From: a virus | Direction: 5' to 3' (one strand) | Length of the DNA: 38,287 nucleotides | IMG/VR virus record: IMGVR_UViG_3300047462_000737 | Coordinates: 1-38,287 of that record | Made by a program: the position numbers and the translations under genes | Shown: in pieces, positions 22,924-35,641 of the stretch | Numbering within the stretch: the first letter of the stretch is position 1 | How the letters are laid out: every line of letters begins with the position of its first letter | Notes under the pieces: model-generated | What the model saw: only the letters and a program-made list of their open reading frames with translations | Database searches by the model: none | What the model was told of the DNA's origin: nothing

Positions 22924-25900
22924 TTAAGTACAGCGGTAAAACGCCTCGAAGATGAAGCCATAGTTCGTCGCGGTGTAATTAGCCAGACCTGACAAGGCAA
23001 AAGCGAAGTATGGACCGCTAGGCAGCGTGAAGCCGCATCCGGGGGCATACACAGAACTGACGCCGATGATCAGTGAGGCGACTGAGGGGTTTCCGACCGG
23101 CGTCACAGGGCAACTAACATAGACATAATTGGAAACTGTTCCTGCAACGGTCAAGTTGCCGTACAACTTGACGAACACCCACGGGCCGATGCGAATGTAT
23201 TGCGCGTCAGTGAAAGTCACAGCGGAGGTGGTCATGGAGCCCGACGCGGTGACTGTCGGCGTGTATGTCAGCCATCCGCCGAGGGTTCCGGTGATTGCTG
23301 CTGACGACGCTAGACCAGCGGCGGAGATGCCACCGGATGCGGTGAGCGCCGCTACTGTCTGAGTAGTTCCGGTGAACGTGTTGCTGGCCGCGAGAAGGGC
23401 GTATCCGGTGGAATCATCGACTCCGCCGACGCCGGTGGAGACGCCGGTGCCATTGACCGCTACGGTCAAGGCTGACTGGACGGTTATGATTTGCCGCCAG
23501 ACGGGAGTCGATGACATGGCGTCGTACTCCAGAGCGATGTTGCTGTTAGCCGCCAGGGTGATGCTGGCGTTGTTTGATCCGGCGTTATAGATGTTCGTGC
23601 CGTTGCCGGAGATAACGCAGGAAGATGTGGTGACGTTGTTCAGTAGTAGTTGCTGTCCGGCCATCGGCGATGCCGGTAACGTCTCTGTCGTTACTCCGTT
23701 CAGCACTAACGTGTAATCGCTGCTTGTCGCGGTGTCGGTGGACGTTGTTACTACGCGGACGTGGCCATTTTGTCCGGCACCGAATGTCTGAATGCCGGTG
23801 AAGGTGTTCGCGGCGAGTGACGCGGCACCTAATGATGTCAATGCGGCGGACGCTGTAGAAGCATTCGTGCCGCCGCGTGAGATTGGAAGGACGCCGGTCC
23901 ATCCGAGCGTGAGCGCCTGACCGGAGATGGTGCCGGTGATGTTGGTGTCGTTGACGACTGATTCTACGGTGGTGGAGGGCAAGTCCGCCGCTACAAGTGA
24001 ACGTAAAGACGCGGTGCCTGTCGAGCCTGATGGGGTGGCGAGTACCTGATTAGCCGAGCCGGACGGCGAAGGCCCTGTAGCTCCTGTCGGTCCGGTTGAT
24101 CCCGTAGGCCCTGTTGCCCCGGTCGCACCGGCAGCCCCGGATGTTCCGGTGGCTCCCGTGGCTCCAGCCGGGCCGGTGGAACCGGTTGGGCCCGTGGCAC
24201 CTACAGCCCCTTGCGGTATGCCGAAATTGAAAGTAGCAGCGGATGAGGTGCCGCTGTTGCTGACTGTCGCCGAGGAGCCAGCCGCTAACGTGGATGTCGT
24301 TCCTACGGCAATCGTGGCCGCTGAACCGCTTGCTCCGGTTGCGCCGGTAGTCCCCGCCGTGCCACTGGCTCCGGTCGGACCGGTAGGCCCGGTTGGACCT
24401 GTAGGGCCTGTCGCCCCCGTAGCCCCAACACTACCCGATGAGCCGCTAGAACCGGTAGCTCCGGTAGCTCCGGTAGCTCCTGTAGCGCCCACCTGGGCGA
24501 GGAGTTGCCAATAACCCGAACCGGTGGAGGGTGCCTGACCTGTGCCGTTAGCTATTGCTATCCATGAGGAGCCGTTATAGGAAACCGCGTTTGTGGTGAC
24601 GTAGGCGGTTGAACTGCTCCATGGCCCTAACCAGATGACGCCGGTGGCTCCAATAGACGCGAGGAGTGACCAATAGGAAGGGCTTGATGAAGGCTGTTGG
24701 CCGGTGTTGCCCACGAGACAGTAATAAGCCGAGCCGTTGTAGAGGACAGCCTGTGTAGCTGTGTATGTAGTGGAGCTACTATATGCATCCTGCCATGAAA
24801 GTCCGGCGGCCCCGATCGAGGCGAGGAGAGACCAATACGAAGGACTGGAGGCCGGGTTCTGACCTGTGTTTCCGACCAGACAGATATAGGCGGAGCCGTT
24901 ATACTGAACCGCCTGGTTCGCGGTGTATGCGGTGCTGAAGCTATAAGTGCCCTGCCAGGAAATGCTTGTGCCTTGAGGACCGGTAGCCCCAGTCGGACCT
25001 GTGGGGCCGGTGCTTCCGGTCGGCCCTGTGGCCCCGGTGGTGCCTGATCCGGTTGCCCCGGTCGAACCGGTTGGGCCTGTAGGGCCGGTGGCCCCGATGG
25101 AACCAGCGGCACCAGCAGTTCCAGTGCTGCCAGTTGGCCCGGTCGGACCAGCGGGACCCGTAGGTCCGGTGATTCCTTGGATGCCTTGGGCACCTGTCGC
25201 ACCTGCTGAGCCTGTCGCCCCGGTGACTCCTTGGGCTCCAGTCGGGCCGGTAATACCTTGGATACCTTGAGGGCCGGTTGCCCCGGTGGCTCCGGTTGGC
25301 CCTGTGATGCTCGATCCTGTCGCCCCGGTAGATCCAGTTGCTCCGGCGACTCCTTGCGGTCCTGTCGGCCCAGTAGGTCCGGTCGGTCCAGTGGGTCCTG
25401 TGGGTCCTGTGGCCCCAGAACCGCTACCAGAACCAGACGGGCCGGTGGGTCCAGTTGCTCCGGTTGGGCCTTGAGGTCCGGTCGGCCCGGTAGGGCCGGT
25501 TATGGATGAGCCTGATGGTCCGGTGGCTCCAGTAGCTCCGGTCGAGCCTGTTGGCCCTGTGGGGCCTTGAGCACCGGTGCTTCCCGTGGCACCTGTTATG
25601 CCCTGAATTCCTTGCGGGCCAGTTGGGCCTGTTGAGCCTGTCGGGCCGGTGCTTCCGGTTGGCCCGGTTGTGCCTACTCTGGTTGCTCCTGTGGCACCGA
25701 CCGGACCTGCGGAACCGGTTGGACCGGCGATACCTTGAGGGCCTGTAGGCCCTGTGTTTCCGGTAGGCCCAGTGCTGCCCGCCGATGTGCTCTGGGTCCA
25801 GTAGAGGGGGTTGGTGTCCGGTTCTTTGTTTGAACCCGCTCCAACGGCGAGATAGCTTGATCCGTTGTAGAGGACAACGTCATAGACGTTGTAAGTTGTG

Positions 25901-26511
25901 ATCGAACTCCAGGCTCCTCGGAAGTTGAAGCCTTGACCTTGTGAACCGGCTGCACCTTGAGGCCCTGTGGCCCCAATTGCTCCGGCTGGACCCGTGGGTC
26001 CGGTTATTCCGTTGGTCCCCGCTGGTCCTGTGTTGCCGACGCTGGCGAGTAGAGACCAGTAGCTAGACGAACTGGATGGGGTCTGATTGGTGGAGGAGGC
26101 TATCGCAATCCATGAGCTACCGCCATATGACACAACGTCATTTGGCGTGTATGCCTGAGTGGAAGACCATGCGGATAACCAGGTGAACGGCGTGAGAAGA
26201 CCGCTGGAGCCGAGGCTCAGATCTTGAGCGATGTACGGGTGAGTAAGTGCCGATCCATACGCCTGGATTGTGTAGGTACCGGCAGCGGCATAGAAAGAGA
26301 TTGTGCCCGTTCCGTCTGGCGTGAACGGGTTTGATAACGGCGTGATTCCCGCTGGGTCTTGGTAGATGGAAGCTAGAGGAGATCCGGGATACAATGACAA
26401 TCCGGTGGCGGGTATGCCTATGGCCGCTTGCACGAGGACGGCGACGTTGACGTTGACTATGGGCCGTCCGAATGAGTCGGTGAATGACTCGCTGAACTTG
26501 TAGAGGGACAT
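22924..26511 (-). CDS. Collagen-like tail fibre with five CBM-like modules
   Basis: 1195 aa. Residues 1-105 are a tail-attachment-type domain ([31 protein letters not shown]). Long Gly-x-y tracts, mostly GPT and GAT triplets, run at about 158-190, 246-510, 676-715 and 760-815 and should form collagen-like triple helices. Between them lie five copies of a 48-residue module resembling the CBM5/12 chitin-binding fold (for example [20 protein letters not shown] ending SYWSLLA), at about 109, 195, 517, 572 and 625. A C-terminal domain of about 380 residues ends with the [13 protein letters not shown] module shared with the next gene. The protein is probably a long trimeric host-recognition fibre. 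Repeat-rich coding DNA here makes large mirror ORFs on the + strand, which are not genes. The ATG follows the previous stop directly. Confidence 0.85.
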
Positions 26512-28063: not shown

Positions 28064-28816
28064 TTACTGGGACTCGCGGTGCCAGCGGCGTAACCGTGCT
28101 AACGCGGATGCGATCACCTGCGGGAGTCTGGCCTCGGAGACGAAGGAACGCTTAGACAGCGTCCGCATGTCCCGGATTGGCCTGGTATCCGCTGATCCTA
28201 GGCCGAGGTGCAAGGTCAGTACAAGTGCCTGCTCGGTGGATAGTGCTGCCAGTGCTTTGGTGACGTATTCGCTGGATAACATCGTCTCCAGGGAACCGTC
28301 GTCCTCGGCCTCCAGCGTGGCTAGAAGGCCGGTGTCAGCGGCGTCCGGGGTCTCAGCATCCCAGTCGGGATCAGCGGCTAGCAGCGGATCATTGACCCTG
28401 CGGTATCTGGCGTAGCTGGTGCATAGTTGCCGCTGGATGGTGGTCTTGACGTATAGCCGGTGGTGACGATGTTGTGGCTTGACCTTGAGAAGCTTTATCC
28501 GGCAGTCTTGGGCCGCGTCCTCGGCGTCCTCGCGACTGGCACCGTAGGTGCTTCGGAATCTCTCATTGACGGTCAGAAGCCATCCGTCGTACTCAGCGAT
28601 GAGTTCGGCGTCTGTTAGCGGGATGTCTGGCGGTTCGGTGGACGCGTCCTGCGGACGCGAAGGAACAGAACGGCGTCGTAGGTCCAGGCTGGTGGGGGGA
28701 ATCGCGTGGGCGTCGCCGGGACGCCGGGAATGATGCCTCTGGGCCATCGGTGGACGGATGCTGGCGGTTATTGTGGATCTCGGATTGGTAGCTGGCAGAT
28801 AGAAGCCTCCTACCAT
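28064..28816 (-). CDS. Sigma-factor-like protein
   Basis: Up to 250 aa. Residues about 70-150 resemble sigma region 2 (AELIAEYDGWLLTVNERF, REDAEDAAQDCRIKLLK, HHRLYVKTTIQRQL). Residues about 190-250 resemble region 4 (TKALAALSTEQALVLTLHLG, SEARLPQVIASALARLRRW). The linker between is acidic. The size and two-domain plan fit an ECF-like sigma factor that would redirect host RNA polymerase, perhaps to late genes (inference). The first 65 residues are Arg/Pro-rich and unlike sigma factors, so the start is uncertain: ATG at 28816 or 28747 are both possible and neither has a good ribosome site. A 21-bp tandem repeat lies just upstream. Another helix-turn-helix regulator is the main alternative. Confidence 0.6.
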   Translation of the reverse strand: MVGGFYLPATNPRSTITASIRPPMAQRHHSRRPGDAHAIPPTSLDLRRRSVPSRPQDASTEPPDIPLTDAELIAEYDGWLLTVNERFRSTYGASREDAEDAAQDCRIKLLKVKPQHRHHRLYVKTTIQRQLCTSYARYRRVNDPLLAADPDWDAETPDAADTGLLATLEAEDDGSLETMLSSEYVTKALAALSTEQALVLTLHLGLGSADTRPIRDMRTLSKRSFVSEARLPQVIASALARLRRWHRESQ

Positions 28817-28982: not shown

Positions 28983-29621
28983 ATGGCCAGTTACATCGCA
29001 TACTATAGAGTCTCGACCGATAAACAAGGGGCCAGCGGCCTCGGATTGGAGGCTCAGAGATCGGCTGTTACTGGTTTTGTGCGGGCCGGGGAGTTAGTTG
29101 GCGAGTTCACGGAAGTCGAGTCCGGGAAACGGCACACAAACCGGCCAATGCTGGCCGCTGCTATGGCTGAGTGCCGCAAGCGTAAAGCCGTGCTGGTGAT
29201 CGCCAAACTAGACCGATTGGCCAGGAACGTCCATTTCATTTCTGGGCTCATGGAATCGGGAGTCGAGTTCACCGCTGTGGACATGCCACAGGCATCGAGA
29301 CTCACGATTCATATTCTTGCTGCCGTGGCCGAACACGAACGCGAGATGATCAGCCAGAGGACAAAGGCAGCGTTAGCCGCTGCTAAGGCGAGAGGCACTG
29401 TCTTAGGCAATCCGAGATTAGCGGAGGCCAGGATCAACGCCGTAGCAGCTACCAGAGCCACTACATCACCAGATGTGGTCCGGCTGATGGTGGAGGCCAG
29501 GAACCAAGGGGCCACGCTACGGGATATATGCAAGAAACTCAATGGCCTCGGCCTGAAAACGTCTCGCGGGTCTGTCTGGTACACCGGAACCGTGGCGTCT
29601 GAACTGAAGCGGGTGGCCTGA
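28983..29621 (+). CDS. Serine recombinase (resolvase/invertase family)
   Basis: 212 aa. YRVSTDKQ near the N-terminus gives the nucleophile Ser11. LVIAKLDRLARN, with the conserved Arg pair, and HILAAVAEHEREMISQRTKA match the resolvase catalytic core and the long E helix. The C-terminal 50 residues carry a small HTH (LRDICKKLNGLGLKTSRGSV). It cuts and rejoins DNA through a phosphoserine link, as resolvases, invertases or small integrases do. The phage also has a tyrosine integrase, so this enzyme more likely resolves dimers, inverts a segment, or regulates. It is alone on the + strand between - strand blocks with its own promoter and terminator, as expected for a moron acquired separately. No invertible segment is recognised nearby. 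Confidence 0.92.
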   Translation: MASYIAYYRVSTDKQGASGLGLEAQRSAVTGFVRAGELVGEFTEVESGKRHTNRPMLAAAMAECRKRKAVLVIAKLDRLARNVHFISGLMESGVEFTAVDMPQASRLTIHILAAVAEHEREMISQRTKAALAAAKARGTVLGNPRLAEARINAVAATRATTSPDVVRLMVEARNQGATLRDICKKLNGLGLKTSRGSVWYTGTVASELKRVA

Positions 29622-29687: not shown

Positions 29688-30725
29688 TTAATGGTGCCAA
29701 TTCTCTAGCATCCTCTTGGTTGACTTTATAATACAAAGCGGATCTATAAATTCCGTAAATACCGTCATAGTTTCATCCGGCGTGATCACGCCGCGTGGTG
29801 TTGTGGGCTGCCTATAGCTTGCCTTCCCAGTGGCCAGATATTCAAGAATCTGATCCTGTGACGAGATGCGCACCGGAGCAACCCGGCGCTCTATTCCACG
29901 GGTCAACTCATCAACCGGGAACAGGCTCAATAGCTGGCGTCGTAAGGCGTGAGCCGTGGTGCGATCCCGGAGACAGTCAGAAGGATCTTTGGCGGGACAG
30001 TTGTGGATGTCCCAGGTCTTAATGCTATGCCAGCCTTTAAACTTCTTCGCGAGGTAGCGGGCGGACTCAATGCCAGCACCATCCCGGCCTACCTGCTTCC
30101 CGGCTTCATTGTCCAGCATCAGCTCAACGGCCTTCACGCCTAAAATGCCGAGGTAATCGATGTGGGCCTCATTCAGCCTCTTGCTGCCGGAAGAGATCAC
30201 AGGCACATGGGGAGCCAGTAGCCGGACCGCGAGCACATCGAAGAACCCCTCTACGATCAGCACTCGACCGTAGATCTTAATGCTCCGCAAAACCCAGTCC
30301 GTGTCCCCGAACCAGGACGGATGACCTTCTTCCACCGGCAGACCGAGGTTGACATATTTTGTGGGTTGTCCGTTTATGCAGAAATTCCACTGGGGATAAA
30401 GCTTGTAATGCGTCAGGATCGAACGGTAATCAAGCTGAGGAAAAACGATTGAAGGTCCCAGCTTCATTTGCGTGGGGATGTAGAATACCCTTAGATCGCG
30501 TAGTATGGGGTCTAGATTCGATTCTATGAGGCGGAGGCATGGTTCCCATCCTCGGGCGGGGATAATCTTCTTAGCCGCGAGGGAGAAACGATCTCCCAAT
30601 CCCTTCGGCGTGACAAACTCATCGTAAAACTTTGTGGTCTCTGCGATGAGCCAGTGGATGTCCTTCCAGGGGCCTTTGTCCTTCCAGGACGCGCCTCGAA
30701 ATAACTCAGATGAGGAAATCGGCAT
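29688..30725 (-). CDS. TOPRIM-domain primase (DnaG-like)
   Basis: 345 aa from the ATG at 30725; a longer frame to 30857 overlaps the previous gene out of frame and is not used. The TOPRIM core reads RVLIVEGFFDVLAV (catalytic E159), then VELMLDNEAGKQ with D205, and KDPSDCL near residue 249, in the order found in DnaG-type primases. The N-terminal half contains a primase-like fold with YRSILTHYKLYPQWNFC and PTKYVNLGLP; an N-terminal zinc finger is missing. It makes RNA primers at the phage fork (family role). It is one base from the stop of the initiator-like gene, whose C-terminus does carry Cys pairs that might supply the missing zinc function. Helicase lies just upstream. Confidence 0.85.
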   Translation of the reverse strand: MPISSSELFRGASWKDKGPWKDIHWLIAETTKFYDEFVTPKGLGDRFSLAAKKIIPARGWEPCLRLIESNLDPILRDLRVFYIPTQMKLGPSIVFPQLDYRSILTHYKLYPQWNFCINGQPTKYVNLGLPVEEGHPSWFGDTDWVLRSIKIYGRVLIVEGFFDVLAVRLLAPHVPVISSGSKRLNEAHIDYLGILGVKAVELMLDNEAGKQVGRDGAGIESARYLAKKFKGWHSIKTWDIHNCPAKDPSDCLRDRTTAHALRRQLLSLFPVDELTRGIERRVAPVRISSQDQILEYLATGKASYRQPTTPRGVITPDETMTVFTEFIDPLCIIKSTKRMLENWHH

Positions 30726-30726
30726 G

Positions 30727-32115
30727 TTACGCCTCCACCGGGTCCAGATCCAGCCGCCAGGGGGCCAGGTGCTCGTGCATGCATGCACAAGGCACACAAA
30801 TCTGAAACCCCATGTATGCGGGATACATTGATGCTGTTTCAATGGTGTCTCCCTCACCGTGGCAACGGGGACAATCAGGATCAGAGATCATCAAATGCCG
30901 GTGCAGGGTGATCACCCGGAAGTCTGGCGGTACTTGTTTCGCCATGGTTGGGAGTGATTTCTTTAGGCTCAGTATCGATTTGATGCCGCGATCAACCCAC
31001 CAGCGTTTATGAGGCGGGAGACCACGCCAGTGATACCACATGATCCGCTGTAGTTCAGCGGGGGAGAAACCAGCGAACTCCTCGTCACGGGTAAAAGCAT
31101 AATCCAGCGGATCGAAGTCCTCGTCCGTGATCCTGAGCGGATGCTGAAACTGCCGGAGTTTCTCATACGGATCTCTGGCACATCTGTCGTCCAGGAACGG
31201 GGAACCGGATTTGTGAACGGGAATAATGTCTGTGGGTCTACCGTTTACCTGATCCGAGATTCCGCTTTCGCAAGCGGCGAACCCATCCCGATCCGGTTGA
31301 CGGGAATTATAATCCCGTGAAGCCTCATCCTGATTTATGTTCCCGCTGGGGATGTGTTCCCGGTTCGGTAGACGGGAACTATGATTGACCTGACCCGCTT
31401 GCCTTGTCCCTGACGGGAGAAGCCTCCCCTCCTTCAGCGGACGCTTCCCGCGTCCGTGGTTTTGTCCGTTGCTTTGGGTTTGAAGAGAGAGAGAAAAAAA
31501 AGAAGGCGTAGCCGCGTCAGCGGCGTGAGCGGCGATAGCCGCGTTCTCGTCCGCGATAGCGGACCCGGCAAAGCCGGTCTCTTCTCTTCTTTTCTTTTCT
31601 ATTCTATTCTCTTCTGGCTTGATAAGATCTTGACCCACTCTTGAGTGACTCAAGACAACCTCAAGAGGGACTCTTGATGTTGCTACCAGATTCGTACTAT
31701 CAGGTTTATTCCCGTCTTCATCAGCGGGTTTCTCCGCCATGAATCTCGCCAGCTTATCCTTCGGCAAGGTGGCACCTTGTTTGTATCTGCCGCGTAAGGA
31801 CTCCGCCATCAACCTTCCCGGTTTATCCGATCCCGTCCACCATCCCCATTCAGTCCCGTCCTTATCCTGGAACCGGAACAACAGCTTCGTCCGTTCAAAC
31901 TCATTGAACATGGCCTCCACATCGTCAACGCTGATGTCCGGTCGGTTGTAAGAATAAAGGTCCCGGTGGACCAGTATCGGATCACATTCAAACGTTCCGT
32001 TCCCCAGGCCCAGCGTCAGCAATAAGGCCAGTTCCGCCCGGTATCGCACCGGCTGGACGTTTCTTAGTTTCTTGCTCCGCGCTATCGAATCCCCGCAAAT
32101 ATATCTCTTTGGCAT
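30727..32115 (-). CDS. Replication initiator-like protein with C-terminal zinc motif; carries a putative origin
   Basis: 462 aa. Residues 1-110 resemble the winged-helix N-terminus of phage replication proteins (ALLLTLGLGNGTFECDPILV, HRDLYSYNRPDISVDDVEAM, FNEFERTKLLFRFQDKDG). Residues about 170-300 are low-complexity and polar, rich in Ala, Ser, Asn, Arg and Gln; their DNA holds repeats and hairpins (31294-31616). Residues 325-410 are a folded helical part (SPAELQRIMWYHWRGLPPHK). Cys415, 418, 440 and 443 form a CxxC...CxxC zinc site. Place and layout, between helicase and primase, fit a lambda O-like initiator or a helicase loader. AAGGAGG lies four bases before the ATG. The linker may be tolerant of sequence because the DNA itself is functional there (inference). 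Confidence 0.65.
   Translation of the reverse strand: MPKRYICGDSIARSKKLRNVQPVRYRAELALLLTLGLGNGTFECDPILVHRDLYSYNRPDISVDDVEAMFNEFERTKLLFRFQDKDGTEWGWWTGSDKPGRLMAESLRGRYKQGATLPKDKLARFMAEKPADEDGNKPDSTNLVATSRVPLEVVLSHSRVGQDLIKPEENRIEKKRREETGFAGSAIADENAAIAAHAADAATPSFFSLSLQTQSNGQNHGRGKRPLKEGRLLPSGTRQAGQVNHSSRLPNREHIPSGNINQDEASRDYNSRQPDRDGFAACESGISDQVNGRPTDIIPVHKSGSPFLDDRCARDPYEKLRQFQHPLRITDEDFDPLDYAFTRDEEFAGFSPAELQRIMWYHWRGLPPHKRWWVDRGIKSILSLKKSLPTMAKQVPPDFRVITLHRHLMISDPDCPRCHGEGDTIETASMYPAYMGFQICVPCACMHEHLAPWRLDLDPVEA
31294..31418 (+). repeat. Degenerate iteron-like repeats inside the initiator gene
   Basis: Two 21-base copies, at 31294-31314 and 31366-31386, share 17 bases around GACGGGAA; a third partial copy, TGACGGGA, is at 31411-31418. 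GGGAAC also recurs inverted between them (31339-31360). The first copy is nearly palindromic (ACGGGA ... TCCCGT). Candidate initiator-binding sites. Confidence 0.5.
31482..31616 (+). other. Four tandem hairpins flanked by purine and pyrimidine tracts; putative replication origin
   Basis: Within the initiator gene. A 24-base purine tract (31482-31506) is followed by four perfect hairpins: GCCGC-GTCA-GCGGC (31511-31524), GCGGC-GATA-GCCGC (31529-31542), GTCCGC-GATA-GCGGAC (31549-31564) and CCGGC-AAA-GCCGG (31565-31577). Then comes a pyrimidine tract of nearly 40 bases (31578-31616), broken only by two A residues, which is roughly complementary to the first tract. Next to the iteron-like repeats, this recalls the lambda origin, which also lies in its initiator gene beside a purine-rich AT stretch. 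Function is inferred. Confidence 0.5.
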
Positions 32116-32133: not shown

Positions 32134-33768
32134 CTACTGCAACGCCGCTGTGTCATCCATGTCCATCGCCGGGTATCGGCCCATCATGCGCTCATGTTCC
32201 TGGTCCTGCTTCGCCAGTCTGGCTGCCCTGCCGCGTCCCTTTTTCTTTTTCTTTGCTATTTCGTCTTCCATCTGCGCTTCCAGGTGAATATTGGCCGACA
32301 CCTCGGCCCGGTGTGCTTCATACGTGGTCTCCCGCATATAGCGTGTCCGCCGATCAGCTTTCACATAGAACGGTTCGAAGTGAACCGAACGTCGCGACTT
32401 CATTTCTGAAATTTTCGAGGTTGCGGTGGCCTTCAGTGTCTCGCCGTGGTAAAAGACATTAATGATCAGGTCAAGGTCCCTGACGGCATCGGTGAATGTG
32501 TCCACATCGGTGCCGTCGTAGACGCCATACTCTGCGGCATCGGGAGCCCACGCCGCCGCTTTCTGGAAGCCTGCCTTGTTCACTTGCAGCGGGGTCATCA
32601 CCACAATGCCTTTTCCGTCTTTATAGGTTTGGGTCAATCCCTGGGCATGATGAAATATCTTGGAGATAGCTTCTCGCCTATCGTTGCCCTCGTAGTTCAG
32701 CCGTCCAATGTAATCGACCGCCAGTACATCGTATGGCAACGCTGACCCGTTTACCAGCTCGACGATCTCCGGCCACGTCGAGGCATGATAAGCATCAAGC
32801 TTACCCGGCAACGTCTTACCCGACTTCAGTTCTTCGATTAGGAGCTTCAGGTTTTCTTGATGCTGCGGAGTTACCTCTTTGGGATGAGATTCCCAGTAAT
32901 CGAGAGCCGGTAGGTTGATCTTGTTCTGGTAATGGAGATGTAGCCATGCTATGCGCTTCCAAGCCTCCATCGGGGGGAACTCTAGAGGTATGAGCAGAAT
33001 CCGCTTTCCGGCCCGCATCATGTTATAGATCATCGTCATCATGAACATGGACTTGCCCTGATTGGTAAAACCGGCGATGCCGACTGTACGGAGTTCCTGC
33101 GATGGTCCAATTAGCTGGGTATCGTCTATGCCGGGAAATCCAGTAAAGCATCTCTTCTCGTCAGGGTCTTCTAGCCTGTCAAATAAGTCCTTCTCAACCA
33201 GCGATAGGTTATCCCGGAAGTCGCCCTCGACGCTGCCAGCGTCATAGATATCCTCCAGCATCCTTTCCCGGATGTAGCGTTTTGCATCCGCCACGCCGGA
33301 CCATGGTCTGTTCTTGTCTTTTGGGTTCTCGACTGACCCGGCGACGATCTTCTTGGCAGTGTCATACGTGATCTCATGGTGGATGCGTCTCGCCTCGGTC
33401 AAGGCCACCGCCAACGCCAGATCCCAGTCCGTGGCGTCCCGCCTTCCCGAGTTAGCATCGTCATCGATGTAATCGATGGCCTTTAGGTATTCGGCCTTCT
33501 GCTGGAGGAAAACGTTCCTGATGCGGAGTCCACATGTCTCCGTCAGTTCCGGCACCGCCAGGATGAAGTCGATGAGATCCTGATGACACTCCGGCATCTC
33601 GTTCTTGTATCTCGCGTAGGACTGGATCACAAACAAGGCCCTGGAAGGCTCCATGTCGTAACAGTGTAGGGACTGCTCCTGACAGAACGTCAGTGCCTCC
33701 CGTGCCTTGGCCAGTTGGTGTAACTCGACTTTGCCGTCCATGATCATGCTGATTATGGTGTCTAGCAT
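32134..33768 (-). CDS. Replicative DNA helicase, DnaB/RecA-fold
   Basis: 544 aa from the ATG at 33768, which has GGAGG six bases upstream; a longer frame to 33942 has no such signal and overlaps the winged-helix gene. Residues 1-170 are the helical N-terminal domain. The RecA-like core begins near 210 with CFTGFPGIDD, then Walker A GFTNQGKS (233-240), a strand with RILLIPLEFPPMEAWKRIAW, and Walker B YDVLAVDYIGRL. Sensor-like segments follow (KGIVVMTPLQVNKAGFQKAA, LDLIINVFYHGETLKATATS, KISEMKSRRS). It unwinds DNA at the fork as a hexameric ring (family role). The C-terminus is basic (AKKKKKGRGRAARLAKQD) and acidic at the end. It leads the helicase-initiator-primase series and may be coupled to a small upstream ORF. 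Confidence 0.9.
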   Translation of the reverse strand: MLDTIISMIMDGKVELHQLAKAREALTFCQEQSLHCYDMEPSRALFVIQSYARYKNEMPECHQDLIDFILAVPELTETCGLRIRNVFLQQKAEYLKAIDYIDDDANSGRRDATDWDLALAVALTEARRIHHEITYDTAKKIVAGSVENPKDKNRPWSGVADAKRYIRERMLEDIYDAGSVEGDFRDNLSLVEKDLFDRLEDPDEKRCFTGFPGIDDTQLIGPSQELRTVGIAGFTNQGKSMFMMTMIYNMMRAGKRILLIPLEFPPMEAWKRIAWLHLHYQNKINLPALDYWESHPKEVTPQHQENLKLLIEELKSGKTLPGKLDAYHASTWPEIVELVNGSALPYDVLAVDYIGRLNYEGNDRREAISKIFHHAQGLTQTYKDGKGIVVMTPLQVNKAGFQKAAAWAPDAAEYGVYDGTDVDTFTDAVRDLDLIINVFYHGETLKATATSKISEMKSRRSVHFEPFYVKADRRTRYMRETTYEAHRAEVSANIHLEAQMEDEIAKKKKKGRGRAARLAKQDQEHERMMGRYPAMDMDDTAALQ

Positions 33769-33842
33769 GACTCGCCTCCGAGATAGAAGCCGCGTCTGGA
33801 TAGCCGGGACCGTCCGGTCCCTTGATAGTTGGTGTTCGCCAT
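33762..33842 (-). CDS. Possible 26-aa leader peptide overlapping the helicase start
   Basis: ATG at 33842 with AAGGGGGAAAT just before it; the peptide MANTNYQGTGRSRLSRRGFY continues LGGESC and stops at a TAG that overlaps the helicase ATG (ATGCTAG). It is Arg-rich. Its DNA includes a perfect hairpin, GGGACC / GGTCCC (33806-33821), so it might control helicase translation. Too short to judge by coding statistics; it could be chance. Confidence 0.4.
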   Translation of the reverse strand: MANTNYQGTGRSRLSRRGFYLGGESC

Positions 33843-33869
33843 ATTTCCCCCTTGCGTGCTTTCGCGGTC

Positions 33870-34232
33870 TTACGCCGCTGTTACTTCCAGTTCCCGCCGC
33901 GTCAAAGACATCAGATGATCCGCATAGCTCCGTGAGAGGCAATAGCTGATCCTGGCCCGGTTCATGTGTGTCTCGCTTTCTTCGGCGTGTCTCGCCACCA
34001 GCCCCAGCGTTACCAAGCGTTGCAGGGACTTAATAGCCGTGGGATGGCTGAGTGAGCACATCCGGCAGAACTCGGAGGCAGTGGCTCGATGTAAGTCCGG
34101 CAGTGAATCAGCAAGATACATCAGAATGCATTTACCGCTGAACGGTATGTCCCGGTCATCCATCATGATTTCCAGGTTTATTGGTGAGTGGTTACGTTCG
34201 ATTGTGGACGTGGTGGTGACTATAGCTGGCAT
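33870..34232 (-). CDS. Winged-helix DNA-binding protein of the replication module
   Basis: 120 aa. Residues 30-90 form a winged-helix pattern: GKCILMYLADSLPDLHRA, then TASEFCRMCSLSHPTAIKSL with QRLVTLGLVARH as recognition helix and wing start, followed by ARISYCLSRSY. MarR-like or replication-initiator-like folds share this plan. It may be a regulator or a second origin-binding factor; position upstream of helicase suits either. AAGGAGG lies three bases before the ATG. No catalytic motif is present. The 101-base gap to the helicase contains the 26-aa ORF described above. Confidence 0.65.
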   Translation of the reverse strand: MPAIVTTTSTIERNHSPINLEIMMDDRDIPFSGKCILMYLADSLPDLHRATASEFCRMCSLSHPTAIKSLQRLVTLGLVARHAEESETHMNRARISYCLSRSYADHLMSLTRRELEVTAA

Positions 34233-34837: not shown

Positions 34838-35641
34838 ATGCCAGACCGTTTTCAAACAGCAGAAGAAGCGATCCTAAAAACTCTGAAGCTGCATCCGCAA
34901 CTGACCATGCCTCAATGCCATCGCGTTTCCGGCCTCGAAGATCGAACCGAGTCCCGGCGTCTGGTCGATCAGCTTACGCGTGACGGGATTCTGATATTGG
35001 TCGATGAGGGCGGGACCAGATTTTACAGCCGGTCTCCCGAGTTGGGCATGGACGATCCGCCGCGATCACCAGAACCGGTGCCACCGCCGATACCCGAACC
35101 ACCAACCCCTACGGCACCGGCCAAAGTCGAAGCACCAGCGGAGACCAGGCCCACGGTCCAGTCCACAGCGGAGACACGGCCACCGGCCATAGTCTCGCCG
35201 CCGCATGTGAAGACATCCCGATACCCCGGCGTATGTTTTGACCGCACAACCCAGCGATGGAGGTCATTTTGCACCGTTGGCGGGAAAACGAAAAATTTGG
35301 GAAGCAACTATCCGAGCGAGGAGGCCGCGTTTCGGGCGCGGGAAGCATTCGTGCAAGAACATCACATACAGTCAAGGCCATTGGCCACAGACGCCGTGCC
35401 AAAGGCACAAGAGGCCACGGCACCGTCACCCGGTGGTCCCGCTGTAACAGCGGAACACACGATCCACGTCTGCCGCCTGGCCGTCTATTCAGCATCCGAA
35501 AAGATGCGGCAGGAGTTGGTGATAGACCGGATGGTCCGGGCCGAATTAGCAGCGGCCAGGACAGCGGGCCATGCCGGTGCCGTCGTCATCTACAGCGATG
35601 AGAGCGGTAATGTCACGGGCCGGGAGACGGTCAAGTTCTAG
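34838..35641 (+). CDS. AP2-domain DNA-binding protein with winged-helix-like N-terminus
   Basis: 267 aa. Residues 1-65 look like a small helix-turn-helix or winged domain (AEEAILKTLKLHPQLTMPQC, SRRLVDQLTRDGILILVDEG). A Pro/Ala/Glu/Thr-rich linker covers 70-125. Residues about 127-175 match the AP2/ERF fold (SRYPGVCFDRTTQRWRSFCT, then LGSNYPSEEAAFRAREAFVQ), known in phages mostly fused to HNH endonucleases; no HNH motif is seen here. A C-terminal alpha/beta part (about 205-267) is unassigned. It probably binds DNA as a regulator. It stands alone on the + strand between two - strand genes, suggesting separate acquisition. Its start uses the recurring GGTCCTGAG motif. It ends five bases before the end of the convergent next gene. 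Confidence 0.72.
   Translation: MPDRFQTAEEAILKTLKLHPQLTMPQCHRVSGLEDRTESRRLVDQLTRDGILILVDEGGTRFYSRSPELGMDDPPRSPEPVPPPIPEPPTPTAPAKVEAPAETRPTVQSTAETRPPAIVSPPHVKTSRYPGVCFDRTTQRWRSFCTVGGKTKNLGSNYPSEEAAFRAREAFVQEHHIQSRPLATDAVPKAQEATAPSPGGPAVTAEHTIHVCRLAVYSASEKMRQELVIDRMVRAELAAARTAGHAGAVVIYSDESGNVTGRETVKF

Follow-up and report, generated by a model that had tools for sequence, protein, structure and literature searches.

A probable replication origin inside the initiator-like gene of an IMG/VR phage combines phased iterons with a strand-asymmetric pentamer repeat

We analysed a viral IMG/VR record of 38.3 kb (38,287 nucleotides), here called the window, which has genes for integrase, portal, terminase, major capsid protein and tail fibres. 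Its replication operon lies on the minus strand and begins with a gene for a small MarR-like HTH protein (33870–34232), followed by a gene for a DnaB-like replicative helicase (32134–33942), an initiator gene directly downstream of it, P0001 (30727–32115; 462 aa), and, directly downstream of that, a gene for a TOPRIM DNA primase (29688–30725). An AP2/HNH-type homing-endonuclease-like gene on the plus strand (34838–35641) adjoins the operon. The window helicase shares 27% and the primase 38% identity with its counterpart in the Tunturiibacter jumbo phage Tunturi_5 (309 kb), in which the two genes lie far from each other. This distant kinship fits an acidobacterial host, and we infer that the host of the window phage is probably acidobacterial. 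Elsewhere in the window, an imperfect 21-nt inverted repeat (86%; 23846–23866 and 28146–28166) encloses part of a collagen-like tail-fibre gene (22924–26511), with a serine recombinase/DNA invertase gene nearby (28983–29621); the tail-fibre segment between the repeats is possibly invertible.

The protein encoded by P0001 has a winged-helix N-domain, a low-complexity linker and a Cys-rich C-domain. In a PHROG search it matched only phrog_1408 ('replication initiation protein'), with E 0.14 and within the N-domain. Of 23 aligned N-domains from the family described below, 20 match the same PHROG, the best at 3e-9, and the window N-domain is 31–51% identical to the other members of this alignment, so that the assignment of the window protein rests on its homologues, its own score being only E 0.14. 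Given the family alignment, AlphaFold2 predicted a winged-helix DNA-binding domain (31723–32115, minus strand; pLDDT 91), with helices at residues 24–35, 46–54 and 63–75 and strands at 41–43, 79–83 and 89–93; a fold of the N-domain predicted without an alignment was useless (pLDDT 40). In Foldseek searches of BFVD, the best viral structure matches were predicted models of Replisome organizers and of phage replication proteins. Solved structures matched at Z 6–7 were winged helices of the Fur/PerR and plasmid Rep types, with the plasmid Rep structures 4pt7, 4pql and 5kbj at Z ~6 amid many other winged helices and our model comprising one winged helix; these matches therefore show the fold only. 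Searching the sequences of solved structures with the initiator returned chance matches only. None of the Pfam or NCBIfam families for lambda O was matched by the initiator either, and we therefore call the system lambda-like for its layout, without classing the protein as a homologue of lambda O. Judged by its predicted fold, the PHROG matches of its family and its neighbour genes, the gene at 30727–32115 is initiator-like.

The DNA encoding the linker contains, in the coding direction, phased iterons, a 5-nt tandem repeat, GC hairpins and a pyrimidine tract, all following the winged-helix domain. The iterons are five copies of TCAAGA/TCTTGA at 31628, 31639, 31650, 31661 and 31672 (span 31628–31677), at an exact spacing of 11 bp and upstream of the purine tract in gene direction. 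They are the only chain of at least three copies of a 6-mer at 10–12 bp in the 38-kb window, they build two perfect palindromes with 7-bp arms (31661–31677 and 31639–31655), and five copies occurred in 0 of 20,000 synonymous shuffles. A first-pass annotation of this DNA had placed iteron-like repeats at 31294–31616. Repeats are indeed present in that range, namely a 28-nt pair (82%; 31286 and 31358) and the dispersed heptamer ACGGGAA/TTCCCGT, but the stronger iterons lie outside it, at 31628–31677. Four of the six ACGGGAA copies in the window fall in the initiator gene (31217, 31300, 31372 and 31709; span 31217–31715), where they flank the purine tract on both sides and are possibly secondary binding sites.

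The purine tract (31579–31616, purines on the coding, minus strand) consists of seven head-to-tail GAANA pentamers (31614–31580), which read GAAGA, GAATA, GAATA, GAAAA, GAAAA, GAAGA and GAAGA on the coding strand, a makeup that the first-pass annotation overlooked. At a lag of 5 nt the tract matches itself at 28 of 31 positions, compared with 18 of 31 for the runner-up in the window and with no equal in 20,000 synonymous shuffles. It is the top 5/6-periodic place of the window locus, and its GC content is 36% against 55% locally. A period of 5 within a triplet-coded stretch speaks for selection on the DNA. We presume that the pentamer tract is the region of strand opening or ssDNA capture.

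Next in the coding direction come four consecutive perfect GC hairpins (31565–31577, 31549–31564, 31529–31542 and 31511–31524, minus strand; fold z -3.08), with stems of 5, 5, 6 and 5 bp. The 67 nt that they occupy (31511–31577) form the densest hairpin cluster in the window, a density reached by only 3 of 1,000 synonymous or codon-permutation shuffles. The hairpins pointed out in the first-pass annotation are real. The same is true of the two roughly complementary tracts that it reported: the coding strand carries a pyrimidine tract at 31482–31506, and in the predicted ssDNA fold this pairs with the purine tract to form a multi-branched stem that encloses the hairpins (z = -4.6; 0 of 200 shuffles equal). 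Further perfect hairpins lie downstream in gene direction, at 31438–31456, 31415–31428, 31300–31318 and 31262–31277 (span 31262–31456, minus strand). The cumulative GC skew of the window has its maximum at 31538, with a polarity opposite to the bacterial convention.

Relatives were difficult to find. Direct searches of IMG/VR, genome contigs, phages and plasmids gave no usable relatives, whether the query was the complete initiator, the helicase, the terminase or the primase, and the family was opened only by a degenerate DNA pattern for the motif W.G.[DE]KPGRLP, around KPGR. Alignment of the relatives found with the motif then led to 25 and subsequently 32 IMG/VR loci, in overlapping sets, and to three loci from Acidobacteriota MAGs, altogether about 30 distinct relatives; in a survey of Acidobacteriota genomes the family was present in 2 of 396. 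The linkers of the relatives cannot be aligned with one another. One relative, L016, is full-length and shares the N-domain, the C-domain (E 4e-15) and a helicase orthologue directly upstream of the initiator gene (E 2e-62), a gene that is found in the same place in L010 (E 1e-48). In L029 a DnaB gene lies directly downstream of the initiator gene, and in L026 and L030 a primase/helicase gene lies a little way downstream.

We scored 35 loci, comprising the relatives and the window itself, with a detector that measures self-match at lag 5 or 6 in 42-nt windows. In 27 of the 35, the detector's top place in the whole locus was a tract directly after the winged-helix domain. The test interval had been picked after the first relatives had been inspected; among the 13 distinct loci retrieved after the pattern was noticed (L047 onwards), the tract ranked first in 10. 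Collapsing kin at 60% identity left the tract first in 19 of 23 clusters (P 7e-24). Directly ahead of the tract, either in coding sequence or shortly past the end of the gene, a 6-mer recurred at 10–12 bp in 31 of 35 loci, compared with 15.7% of control intervals. Recurrence peaked sharply at this spacing, and chains of at least three copies occurred in 8 of 35 loci, compared with 0.04% of control intervals. Some two dozen distinct relatives keep the layout of phased sites followed by a one-sided 5–6-nt repeat.

The letters of iterons and tract vary from phage to phage while the layout is kept. In L012, CCTAGGA sites are followed by GGGTTTGGTAGGGGTAGGGTTAGG and then by the hairpin GCGGCTGACGCCGC; in L060, CAATGG recurs at 11 bp and is followed by (GGTTCT)5 and a hairpin; L056 has five CTCAGC sites at 11-bp spacing; and the tracts of L053 and L029 are (GGGTT)n and (GGCTTA)n. 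Tracts of the relatives usually show GG every 5–6 nt, with a mean period of 5.4 where the tract is noncoding and 5.6 where it is coding. Their mean GC content is 48%, against 53% for the locus, values that do not support AT-richness of the unwinding element as a trait common to the relatives. The hairpins, which the first-pass annotation had stressed as an origin feature, were significant (p <= 0.05) in only 7 of 31 loci; they are therefore a variable accessory and the least conserved part, not a conserved core, and the iterons and pentamers are the key elements. Four loci with the N-domain (L018, L023, L035 and L057) had no periodic tract by the detector, and their origins may lie elsewhere. 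A GC-skew maximum near the tract was found in 1 of 11 relative contigs examined, that of L016, and for this reason and because of its polarity we do not count the skew in favour of an origin.

This arrangement resembles the origin of phage lambda, in which palindromic iterons within gene O, about two helical turns apart, are followed by a tract whose purines lie almost all on the same strand (PMC5043065, PMC7466680). As a positive control, the detector that we used on the relatives selected the A-rich tract of lambda ori, at +431 of gene O and directly after iteron 4. In lambda, in Stx and other lambdoid origins and in the window alike, the origin or candidate origin lies centrally in the initiator gene, with iterons and then a one-strand purine tract in the coding direction, and the geometry is similar, the window tract lying at +500. 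There are also differences. We found no protein sequence relation to lambda O, and the window has its own DnaB-like helicase and primase genes adjoining where lambda has a P-type loader. The window sites are short and occur once per 11 bp, the tract is a regular 5–6-nt repeat that is G-rich rather than AT-rich in most relatives, and the window has four extra hairpins. The comparison with relatives, the predicted fold, the family's PHROG matches and the neighbour genes all support the first-pass suggestion of a lambda-like origin within the initiator gene, and we conclude that the linker region very probably holds the phage replication origin. The layout of this region supports an intragenic origin of the lambda type, whose phased tract, rich in G or A/G and mostly not AT-rich, is unusual.

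We considered whether the repeats and hairpins could simply be by-products of protein need, arising by chance from the simple codons of a flexible, low-complexity linker. The linker is indeed low-complexity in most relatives (GFGFGF, GLGLGL, EEKRREE and Ala-rich types), and in many of them a period of 6 preserves the reading frame. The period of 5 in the window and others is, however, no multiple of 3, neither the pentamers nor the five iterons appeared in 20,000 synonymous shuffles, and the spacing of iterons in relatives peaks at 10–12 bp. More directly, the tract is noncoding in nine loci (L020, L021, L024, L026, L027, L030, L062, L066 and L067), where the frame stops before it, and in L058 it is on the opposite strand, which argues that the DNA and not the protein is under selection. 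In several of the loci with noncoding tracts (L020, L021, L024, L026, L027, L062 and L066), a homologous C-domain is encoded by a separate gene after the tract, and the same C-domain is fused across a translated tract in L017, L025, L055 and L056. In relatives with the same N-domain, the comparison that the first-pass annotation had proposed as a check, phased repeats and a strand-asymmetric tract recur at the corresponding position even where it is noncoding, and we regard an origin of the pattern in protein need as very improbable.

A function in the DNA need not be replication. Phased palindromic sites are typical of operators too, and the region is transcribed as part of an early operon, so the sites and tract might autoregulate the replication operon as an operator or attenuator instead of serving as an origin. 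Operators seldom need a 40-nt periodic tract, however, no T-run terminator follows the hairpins, and the strand asymmetry of the tract and its fixed place by helicase and primase genes match lambda ori; regulation in place of an origin is accordingly unlikely, with a small share of probability left to it, and the two roles could coexist. We give even less credence, indeed scarcely any, to a partition or centromere-like site, or a recombination or packaging signal, that travels with the initiator. Partition systems also use iteron arrays and G-rich repeats could recombine, but the site is linked with the initiator gene and not with the terminase, which lies at 19–21 kb of the window.

If the linker DNA is the origin, as we favour, initiation might proceed as follows. 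The winged-helix domain would bind the iterons of its own gene, at one site per helical turn, and the bound initiator would bend or wrap this DNA. The adjacent tract would then open, aided by negative supercoiling and by transcription through the early operon, and its purine- or G-rich strand would be kept single-stranded by the initiator, by an R-loop or by another non-B structure. At the opened tract the neighbour-encoded DnaB-like helicase, and then the phage primase, would be loaded. A cruciform extruded from the hairpins and the pyrimidine tract may stabilise the open state, in an accessory role. Within this origin reading, the tract could work through transcription, as an R-loop or, in relatives with G3 runs, a G-quadruplex, rather than through binding of initiator to ssDNA. 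Consistent with such a role, almost every scored locus has its G- or purine-rich strand as the non-template strand (the exceptions are L058 and L032), runs of at least three G occur in L012, L022 and L053, and lambda ori is activated by transcription (PMC5043065). Against it, L058 has the opposite orientation, and the window tract has no G-runs, so that a quadruplex is not common to all; because of this, and because many relatives have GG only, we rejected the G-quadruplex as a common principle. A transcription-based mode of action thus seems rather unlikely to us, though a real contender.

Other known systems share parts of this design. Plasmid iterons sit outside the rep gene. In other respects iteron plasmid origins (RK2, F, P1 and R6K) are similar, with phased iterons beside a repeat region of which one strand is bound by a winged-helix initiator; unlike the 5–6-nt G/A-phased units here, their unwinding element consists of AT-rich 13-mers. 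Winged-helix plasmid Rep proteins bind one strand of the repeats in the unwinding region (PMC4081077), which provides a precedent for strand capture. Bacterial oriC with DnaA-trios likewise places double-stranded initiator boxes beside a strand-specific short repeat, but its period is 3 nt and its initiator, DnaA, is an AAA+ protein, whereas here the period is 5–6 nt (7 in other phages) and the protein has a winged helix; on its period we rejected an unwinding element of the DnaA-trio type.

Also similar are the phrog_1408 or 'RepA-like' initiators of Mx8 (p19), F10 and Streptomyces and Mycobacterium phages, which also have a winged-helix N-domain, a variable linker and adjoining DnaC/DnaB genes. 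In those sampled, the linker carries the most asymmetric short repeat of the locus, often GGGAACA heptamers; they differ in their distant sequence, in a period of 7 in many cases compared with 5–6 here, and in linkers that are otherwise unrelated. Applied to GenBank phages, the period-5/6 detector placed the tract at the top of the locus in only 4 of 12 and missed the heptamer tracts. With periods of 5–7 and purine asymmetry, a measure tuned on data already seen, 12 of 13 described phages, among them lambda and Mx8, had the top tract of the fetched stretch within the initiator gene. The GGGAACA heptamers are near-identical and lie at about +375 to +435 of the initiator genes of five phages (L114, L112, L115, L113 and L116) that infect unrelated hosts, namely Marinomonas, Streptomyces, Mycobacterium and Propionibacterium. 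The linkers of Bordetella IFTN1, E. coli HK639 and Pseudomonas F10 (L107, L109 and L106) carry CTGATTC heptamers (GAATCAG on the other strand) that translate as DSLNLIP-type peptides, and the Vibrio VvAW1 initiator gene contains the repeat GGAAAAGGAAAG.

The literature that we searched, with subscription journals outside its scope, describes no G-rich or pentamer phage origin element, which is weak evidence. As far as this literature shows, the phased 5–6-nt strand-specific repeat would be a conserved element undescribed so far. We tentatively propose, with rather less than even confidence, that phage genes for winged-helix 'replisome organizer' initiators generally carry such an undescribed origin element: a 5–7-nt one-strand tandem repeat beside phased iterons, with units of GG or GA per half helical turn or, in actinophages and others, GGGAACA heptamers. 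It would not be AT-rich, could move freely into and out of the reading frame and, as a phage counterpart of the DnaA-trio read on one strand, would capture and open the origin.

The replication start site and mode are unmapped for most phages, lambda being the textbook case. An initiator winged helix, followed by iterons at 10–12 bp and then by a 5–7-nt one-strand repeat, is a computable signature that would show where replication probably starts in a clade of phages, probably acidobacterial, of which no member has been studied. In part the signature carries over to Streptomyces, Mycobacterium, Vibrio, Marinomonas and Myxococcus phages. It would offer a straightforward way to predict origins in metagenomic phages. 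It also raises a testable question, whether the winged-helix initiator reads the short repeat on ssDNA, and it provides a possible minimal replicon for Acidobacteriota plasmids.
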